From contig JAPOQU010000084.1 in assembly GCA_026710545.1 (NCBI GenBank), positions 1 through 35,737 of the forward strand: 35,737 nucleotides of DNA. Reading direction: 5' to 3'. Within the stretch, counting starts at the first letter, position 1; the number at the start of each line of letters is the position of its first letter. Below the pieces are notes generated by a model. It did not search any database, was not told the origin of the DNA, and worked only from the letters and a program-made list of their open reading frames with translations. This stretch comes from Gammaproteobacteria bacterium (GTDB lineage: Bacteria; Pseudomonadota; Gammaproteobacteria; Eutrophobiales; Eutrophobiaceae). Positions 34,951 through 35,737 of this stretch are shown piece after piece. The position numbers were made by a program, and so were the translations under genes.

Positions 34951-35059
34951 TCCATATTCACGTCACGTAATCCAGTCTATTTGTCGTACTTCGTGTTACT
35001 CGTTCAATTTTTACTCCTGCAAAAATTGTCGCGTAAGTCACCCAAGTTCGAGATATAAA

Positions 35060-35091
35060 AAAGCCCCCGACCTTCATAGATCGGGGGCTTT
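35060..35091 (-). terminator. rRNA-type intrinsic terminator, distal copy
   Basis: AAAGCCCCCGA and TCGGGGGCTTT form a perfect 11-bp stem around a 10-base loop, followed on the minus strand by a T-run. It is a classic intrinsic terminator downstream of the 5S stub and the second line of termination for the rRNA operon. Confidence 0.9.
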
Positions 35092-35099
35092 GTGTTAAG

Positions 35100-35117
35100 C
35101 CCTGGCGGTGACCTACG
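35100..35117 (-). pseudogene. 3' stub of a 5S rRNA gene
   Basis: GCCCTGGCGGTGACCTACG equals the 3' terminal bases of the intact 5S gene to the right, including the strand that pairs with the 5S 5' end, but no 5S body follows. It looks like the remains of a tandem 5S copy or of a duplication of the operon end. Confidence 0.7.
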
Positions 35118-35193
35118 TTCATTGCGCACATCCCTGTGCGCAACCCTCCGGGCGGCCTGCGGCCGTGCAAATCGTCTGTCCTGACGATTTGTC
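35118..35193 (-). repeat. Three-hairpin element, copy 1 (76 bp)
   Basis: The element has three stems: TTGCGCACA/TGTGCGCAA (35122-35143), CGGCC/GGCCG (35153-35165) and CAAATCGTC/GACGATTTG (35168-35191). It is the reverse complement of the element at 35420-35495, of equal length. It is bordered by a 12-bp perfect inverted repeat, GGTGACCTACGT (35107-35118) and ACGTAGGTCACC (35207-35218). Confidence 0.88.
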
Positions 35194-35212
35194 GCACTCC
35201 GTGCTCACGTAG

Positions 35213-35293
35213 GTCACCCAAGTTCGAGACATAAAAAAGCCCCCGACCTTCATAGATCAGGGGCTTTGTGTTAAGCCCTGGCGGTGACCTACG
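35213..35293 (-). repeat. Direct repeat copy 2: terminator plus 5S 3' end
   Basis: This is the partner of 35037-35117. It contains the proximal terminator and the true 3' end of the intact 5S gene. Confidence 0.9.
35236..35267 (-). terminator. rRNA-type intrinsic terminator, proximal copy
   Basis: This has the same stem-loop as the distal copy. One base in the right arm differs (TCAGGGGCTTT). In the minus-strand RNA this gives a U-G wobble, so the stem is kept in the rRNA-sense transcript, followed by a U-run. It lies directly after the 5S gene. Confidence 0.9.
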
Positions 35294-35391
35294 CTCGCAC
35301 GGGTAAACCCGCACTACTATCGGCGCTACGTCGTTTCACTTCCGAGTTCGGTATGGGATCGGGTGGTACCAACGCGCTATGGCCGCCAGGA
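35276..35391 (-). rRNA. rrf: 5S ribosomal RNA
   Basis: About 116 bases on the minus strand. The 5' end CCTGGCGGCCATAGC pairs with the 3' end CCGCCAGG, and the internal 'CCCATACCGAACTCGGAAGTG' region is characteristic of bacterial 5S rRNA. The exact ends are uncertain by a few bases. It lies 157 bp downstream of the 23S gene, with no tRNA between. Confidence 0.95.
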
Positions 35392-35419
35392 AATCGGTAC
35401 TACTGCAATTCGGTAAACT

Positions 35420-35495
35420 GACAAATCGTCAGGATAGACGATTTGCACAGCGTTAGCTGCCTGAAAAGGTTGCGCACAGGGATGTGCGCAATGAA
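35420..35495 (+). repeat. Three-hairpin element, copy 2 (76 bp)
   Basis: Stems are CAAATCGTC/GACGATTTG (35422-35445), CAGC/GCTG (35448-35459) and TTGCGCACA/TGTGCGCAA (35470-35491). It is inverted relative to the copy at 35118-35193 and lies in the 23S-5S spacer. The outer stems are nearly identical between copies; the middle stem has different sequence but is still a stem. Confidence 0.88.
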
Positions 35496-35548
35496 AAGCC
35501 AAGGTATTGCACTGTTGTCAGCATATAACAGATCGTTTGAGTGTTATA

Positions 35549-35737
<189 letters not shown>

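Follow-up and report, generated by a model that had tools for sequence, protein, structure and literature searches.

Are the two palindromic elements that flank a 5S rRNA gene at the end of this contig parts of the rRNA operon, or copies of a repeat that belongs to the genome at large? The window (the whole stretch of DNA analysed, 35,737 nucleotides) ends in an rRNA operon on the minus strand, and its 5S gene is flanked by two elements in opposite orientation, at 35118-35193 and 35420-35495, where an earlier note on this DNA had described them. The ends of the two are complementary over 28 bp (100%) and 32 bp (94%). In what follows, G000 is the window's own genome and G003 a sister species of the same genus; the four hairpins of the element are called hp1 to hp4. 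The features are as follows.

35548..35737, minus strand: 23S rRNA 3' end (Rfam RF02541)
35422..35494, plus strand: element copy 2, CAAATC...CAATGA, 73 bp, in the spacer between 23S and 5S; G003 has no copy at the orthologous site
35420..35421, plus strand: GA target dinucleotide of copy 2, from the G003 empty site and the GA rule in flanks
35422..35445, plus strand: copy 2 hp1, loop AGGATA
35448..35459, plus strand: copy 2 hp2, CAGC GTTA GCTG
35460..35469, plus strand: copy 2 hp3, CCT GAAA AGG
35470..35491, plus strand: copy 2 hp4, loop GGGA
35276..35390, minus strand: 5S rRNA gene (Rfam RF00001, 97.9 bits)
35236..35267, minus strand: terminator-like hairpin in the interval between 5S and copy 1
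35119..35191, minus strand: element copy 1, CAAATC...CAATGA, 73 bp, within a truncated extra 5S 3' end; GA at 35193-35192 precedes it
35168..35191, minus strand: copy 1 hp1, loop AGGACA
35153..35165, minus strand: copy 1 hp2, CGGCC GCA GGCCG
35144..35152, minus strand: copy 1 hp3, CCC GGA GGG
35122..35143, minus strand: copy 1 hp4, loop GGGA
35100..35118, minus strand: truncated second 5S 3' end adjoining copy 1, recognised as a direct repeat
35060..35091, minus strand: second terminator-like hairpin, in a duplicated unit

Both copies read, from the hp1 end, GA, hp1 (CAAATCGTC..GACGATTTG), CA, hp2, hp3, hp4 (TTGCGCACA GGGA TGTGCGCAA) and TGA, where the paired tokens are the stem arms. The arms of hp2 are CGGCC/GGCCG in one window copy and CAGC/GCTG in the other, those of hp3 CCC/GGG or CCT/AGG. 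Between the GA and the next flank base, either copy holds 73 bp and four hairpins, one more than the three originally described; the equal length of the two copies holds, but not the 76 bp then given, since empty sites set the ends at CAAATC...ATGA. The reported 12-bp flanking inverted repeat is likewise present (35107-35118 with 35207-35218), but the 5S end that it includes is that of the truncated second 5S 3' end and not of the 5S gene. Only 5S and 23S score above the Rfam gathering score in the window, and neither element copy matches a curated family; at E<=1 there is one 19-bit sRNA match spanning 35057-35268, far under the gathering score, and nothing else on the copies.

Inverted copies around a 5S gene could act as rRNA processing stems, their paired transcripts looping out the 5S precursor, as the earlier note had suggested; an enzyme of the RNase III type would then cleave the stem. 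Folding predicts the pairing that this requires: the rRNA-strand fold contains 70 inter-copy pairs, and the inter-copy duplex is computed at -125.3 kcal/mol, versus -36.5 and -33.2 for the separate copies. However, it does not point to a conserved processing device. The terminator-like hairpin at 35236-35267 separates 5S from copy 1, which most transcripts should therefore not reach; moreover, the orthologous operon of G003 has no copy 2, the element is absent from four of the six 5S loci compared within the genus, and copies are dispersed in genomes. An inter-copy duplex may form in read-through transcripts, but we regard a processing role as very improbable, and predict that neither window copy is needed for 5S maturation.

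The same-genus comparison covers fetched stretches of the six genomes with a 5S match (G006 gave none). Only in G000 does the element lie on both sides of 5S; G003 has one, and the fetched loci of G001, G002, G004 and G005 have no element. The orthologous rrn locus of G003, 92-96% identical in the aligned pieces, carries copy 1 and lacks copy 2. Most likely, copy 2 entered the spacer between 23S and 5S once this lineage and that of G003 had separated. Copy 1, which G003 shares, is the older one and sits in a redundant 5S remnant. That remnant lies within a tandem duplication of a 92-bp terminator-bearing unit (35029-35120 and 35205-35296, 95% over 92 bp), which comprises the terminator and the 5S 3' end and encloses the truncated 5S piece at 35100-35118. 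G003 retains this arrangement with a different second terminator. An inverted 5S-3'-end-like piece lies beside the tandem duplication (35029-35296). Past the second terminator, directly after CGA, the window also has a hairpin at 35005-35028, CAATTTTTACTCCTGCAAAAATTG, whose loop on the minus strand is the hp1-like CAGGAG; it is possibly a diverged hp1.

BLAST of the region against G000 found 33 places, some copies being counted in both orientations. With a covariance model built from 22 copies and searched over the family genomes, the matches number 26 in G000, most of them outside the window rRNA operon, 38 in G002, 40 in G003 and 39 in G005; G001 has five copies, and G004, of the same genus, 97% complete and in 6 contigs, has zero covariance-model matches. 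Family-wide, the model finds matches in 26 of the 53 genomes, which represent 17 of the 18 genera; of 369 genomes sampled across the class, 78 have a match at E<=1e-5 and 291 have none. A fixed rRNA-operon position without copies elsewhere is contradicted by these dispersed copies and by the 5S loci of the relatives. The two window elements are not rRNA parts, and the mobile REP/MITE-like family that had been offered as the other reading is upheld by copies dispersed in genome, family and class. Among the matches listed for the hp1 pattern in named genomes are Methylomonas, Methylobacter, Methylocaldum and Rhodanobacter, together with Luteimonas, Marinobacterium, Microbulbifer, Psychromonas and many gammaproteobacterial MAGs. 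A few listed records are titled Verrucomicrobia, Betaproteobacteria, Deltaproteobacteria or Anaerolinea, and one is Extensimonas vulgaris; those that are MAGs may be contamination. Plasmids and phages gave no blastn match at E<=0.01 with queries of 75-78 bp, a length at which such a search has low power.

We followed the pairing in two alignments. For the first, 22 copies were collected with a pattern in which the hp4 foot and portions of hp1, two G of its loop among them, were fixed; 98.9% of the cells in this alignment are paired, and 29 are double-changed, versus 6.6 in shuffles. The second, fitted to the covariance model, holds 85 matches (79 distinct rows) in named genomes, from the first 80 listed loci less L147, L160, L180 and L188, which have weak matches only. 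Here 94.4% of cells are paired; 301 are double-changed, 15 one-sided and 110 unpaired, and shuffles of the 79 rows give 85.7 double-changed cells. In both alignments, therefore, the stems are kept while their sequence changes, as had been surmised from the middle stem of the two window copies. Because the collection patterns fixed much of hp1, the telling part of this covariation is hp2-hp4, which holds 290 of the 301 double-changed cells. The loops are conserved as well, GNA in hp3 of 69/85 matches and NGGA in hp4 of 80/85. Conservation of the hp1 loop in the 85 matches is no evidence, since the named-genome search pattern fixed most of hp1 and its GGA; among the BLAST matches printed, all 17 that bear hp1 have the loop AGGA.

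The pairs themselves are of a particular kind. Of 1840 standard pairs in the second alignment, 18 (0.98%) are G-U, as are 5 of 544 in the 22-copy alignment, versus 51 of 347 (14.7%) in a 5S control of 11 genes, scored on an RNAalifold predicted consensus with identical rows counted once. On this contrast it is likely that the pairing matters as DNA. It takes a form that works on either strand, which is what DNA hairpins should show; the picture would be the same if RNA were needed from both strands, or under palindrome-correcting mutation.

The ends of the element follow from its flanks. Of the 85 matches, 83 entered the count, and 78 of these gave flanks that were both complete and unique: -2 is G in 75/78 and -1 is A in 77/78, positions that the covariance model includes and the search pattern does not. 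The left end is GA followed by CAAATC, and the right end is mostly ATGA/GTGA or TGC. Over the same 78 flanks neither end carries a GTAG or CGTC tag. There are no terminal inverted repeats, the left hairpin CAAATC.. and the right ..hp4-ATGA not being mutual inverted copies. Insertion-free counterparts place the integration 3' of GA with no detectable target duplication; as most sites end in GA, a 2-bp GA duplication is indistinguishable from none there, and the informative sites are those with right ends TGC or TGT, at which one-base decay is in principle possible. Head-to-tail tandem copies share a common junction, in which ATGA runs directly into CAAATC. Several copies are nested in other short repeats, some of which are presumably REPs. 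Copies at L004, L005, L007, L010, L130 and L140 lie within larger inverted repeats, for example TTTTCAAGAC..GTCTTGAAAA, and form composite repeats. A hairpin with a stem of at least 5 ends at the target in 7 of 41 flank clusters, versus 4.0% of control GA sites, a modest enrichment of a feature that some single-strand mechanisms would predict; right flank hairpins of this kind occur in 6/41 clusters, about the same as on the left. At L124:3653-3725 (minus strand) and L006:1203-1276 the element sits at an ATGA start or stop/start overlap, where its right end (GGA .. ATGA) would give the downstream gene a Shine-Dalgarno-like stretch and an ATG.

Exact insertions are also found within protein genes. 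The Lhr helicase of G000 (contig C96) carries an exact 24-residue in-frame insertion of the element. Among the best 60 of 120 Lhr homologues listed, 12 have the insertion (one as a tandem double) and 46 have none, P0001, 85% identical, being one without; P0059 and P0060 have short unrelated residues at the site and belong to neither group. In IS91-type transposases an exact 25-residue insertion is present in 6 of 120 listed homologues and absent from 114. Both lists are ranked by an insertion-bearing query, so the counts are not frequencies. Two of the six insertion-bearing transposases come from one Nitrococcus genome, and one of these is the query's own gene, which suggests that in Nitrococcus the IS91-type transposon copied itself after the element had inserted. 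IS91/ISCR-like transposase ORFs with the element in frame at one site are seen at L200:6938-7789, L229 and L230; such ORFs are a possible vehicle for horizontal spread. Length is divisible by three in 109 of 190 elements, copies within a lineage being non-independent, and open frames run through 54 of the 190, which is no evidence by itself.

Copies of RNA genes are broken as well. In the MAG RIFCSPLOWO2_12_47_11 (L168), the element splits the anticodon loop of a partial tRNA-Ser, and the joined flanks match the intact tRNA-Ser of the locus at 51/51 bases. The element there ends in TGT after the target GA, and so no target bases are seen twice. The tRNA-Ser(CGA) locus at L168:3900-4560 has two such partial copies, each broken by the element in the anticodon loop, beside the intact gene; the second has 4 extra junction bases, where the model match ended early. 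Partial tRNA-Ser-like sequence also flanks copies at L184, L191 and L231. In G013, an intact 5S (94 bits) is accompanied by a second 5S (51 bits) that the element breaks at a position homologous to that of window copy 1. Weaker matches are present next to the intact 5S of G013 (41.8 bits) and downstream of the 5S in G016 (29.4 bits). The 5S position common to G000/G003 and G013 could reflect either common descent or repeated targeting. The simplest reading of the RNA-gene insertions is that they survive in redundant gene copies. A degenerate second 5S without the element (30.6 bits; L111, G012 C11:161857-161970) lies about 7 kb from an intact 5S.

What moves such an element? The familiar answer would be a RAYT, the Y1 transposase of the usual REPtron kind, with the element as its REP. 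The element is indeed a short palindrome, sometimes nested in other repeats, and a Y1 match is present in 55 of 78 element genomes versus 170 of 291 others (p=0.067, uncorrected). However, none of 32 Y1 loci of about 3 kb, drawn from 71 Y1 matches in 19 genomes, carries the element at E<=0.01. One of these is the IS200-like TnpA locus L049; neither there nor at the 31 others did we find shared ends with an autonomous IS200/IS605. The RAYT-like genes of G000, on contigs C89 (L050) and C6 (L051), are adjoined by other palindromes, GGGGTCAGAGCA.. at L050 and GGGGACAGATTT.. with a 22-bp tandem array at L051. Moreover, G005 (39 copies) and G001 (5 copies), both draft genomes, have no Y1 match, and the ends of the element are without GTAG or CGTC tags. 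Movement by a RAYT is thus improbable. Other enzymes fared no better: Y2 (IS91) is present in 16/78 element genomes versus 57/291 others (p=0.87) and IS110 in 35/78 versus 91/291 (p=0.03, uncorrected), and G000 has no Y2 or IS110 match at 1e-5. Over the 369 class genomes, co-occurrence with Y1, Y2 or IS110 is absent or weak, and none stands out. As possible bounds of an autonomous element we considered seven pairs of neighbouring copies, five of them inverted and two direct, from six genomes and with spacings of 0.3-1.6 kb. The genes in or near which these pairs sit differ, some being of the recombinase or transposase kind, and we could see no gene that the pairs enclose in common. The Y1, Y2, IS110 and neighbouring-copy searches gave no mobilising enzyme or autonomous relative.

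The pairing could also have causes that owe nothing to transposition. The element might be kept for an RNA function, as a terminator, an mRNA stabiliser or a protein-binding leader, its mobility being incidental. Strong covariation and conserved loops would fit, GNA and GNNA loops being stable in nucleic acids. However, G-U at 1% of pairs is unlike one-strand RNA when 5S has 14.7%, the element occurs inside proteins and tRNA/5S gene copies, and the two window copies face opposite ways; selection for an RNA role is accordingly quite doubtful. Quasi-palindrome correction, in which replication strand switching copies one arm onto the other, would produce covariation by mutation and not by selection. 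It accounts well for changes that are nearly all double and Watson-Crick (the 301 against 15 one-sided and 110 unpaired cells), and the pseudo-5S flank also holds an inverted repeat; yet correction alone does not require hp3 and hp4 loops to be conserved across many genera, and it accounts for pairing, not for spread. We consider it an unlikely source of the covariation, though one with real weight.

The reading we favour, and think probable, is that of one dispersed, gene-free repeat of about 72 bp with four hairpins, patchy in Gammaproteobacteria, which inserts 3' of GA without detectable duplication and which an enzyme acting in trans probably moves in the form of folded single-stranded DNA. 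The family, its structure, the GA target, the empty sites and the in-frame and RNA-gene insertions are shown. Movement itself is read from presence versus absence at sites, and single-strand movement is the most likely mechanism because of the Watson-Crick covariation, the conserved loops, the asymmetric GA target and the lack of detectable duplication. In such a mechanism the element would move as folded single-stranded DNA, its hairpins with conserved GGA loops would be the recognition feature of the enzyme, and that enzyme would act in trans. Insertion after a short target (GA) with no detectable duplication is as in IS200/IS605-derived elements. The element is unlike a MITE, having no terminal inverted repeats and no target-site duplication at tRNA-Ser (51/51; GA-ending sites are ambiguous).

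Several known systems offer partial parallels. The Rickettsia palindromic elements (RPEs) are described in PMC10969869 as short palindromic repeats in many copies that insert in frame into genes unrelated to one another and encode a conserved peptide. The in-frame insertions here (Lhr, 24 aa; IS91-type transposase, 25 aa) are alike, whereas RPEs occur in a different class and are about 150 bp long, and the present element of about 72 bp has four hairpins and a GA target and also enters tRNA and 5S gene copies. NCBIfam includes RPE models, and none of them is among the NCBIfam matches of four element-bearing proteins, a comparison at the level of those models. The GTAG and CGTC superfamilies of REPs, by PMC3733652, are 20-40 bp with a tagged end, the GTAG ones being RAYT-linked; the present element is likewise a small dispersed palindrome and differs in its size of about 72 bp, with no tag and no RAYT link. 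ERIC and RU-1, RU-2 and RU-3, enterobacterial repeats of 103-168 bp, are intergenic and also fused in frame within genes, according to PMC2759123; the intergenic and in-frame genic copies here are similar, the architecture is different, and insertion-free homologues with exact junctions are shown here. For 5S rRNA expansion segments, the section of PMC7812874 consulted names Pseudoalteromonas alone among bacteria outside the clostridia. These segments, like our element, add hairpin sequence to 5S genes and 5S pseudogenes, but what is inserted here is a member of a repeat family spread through the genome. In the literature searched, hp1-type letters occur in no paper and we found no description of this element family; subscription papers, mostly outside the search, may contain one. 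In our reading it is a non-autonomous mobile repeat that behaves like RPEs and REPs; the tests made place it neither with the RAYT-linked REPs nor with the MITEs, and so far show no sequence link to RPEs.

The findings have practical uses. Annotation of genomes is affected, with 24-25 residues added to conserved proteins and tRNA and 5S gene copies broken. The scarcity of G-U offers a simple test by which DNA hairpins might be told apart from RNA structures in other repeat families. Named isolates (Methylomonas, Methylobacter, Rhodanobacter) carry the family, and with exact empty sites and one target rule a mobilisation assay is possible. RPEs reside in obligate intracellular bacteria, and to our knowledge the spread of gene-free palindromes such as RPEs is unsolved. 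Tentatively, and at somewhat less than even chance, the present elements may be class-wide, minimal four-hairpin parasites made of single-stranded DNA, unrelated to RAYT-driven REPs: an independent gammaproteobacterial counterpart of the RPEs, which an undescribed trans-acting enzyme would insert after GA in intergenic DNA, in other repeats, in tRNA and 5S gene copies and, in frame, in conserved proteins.
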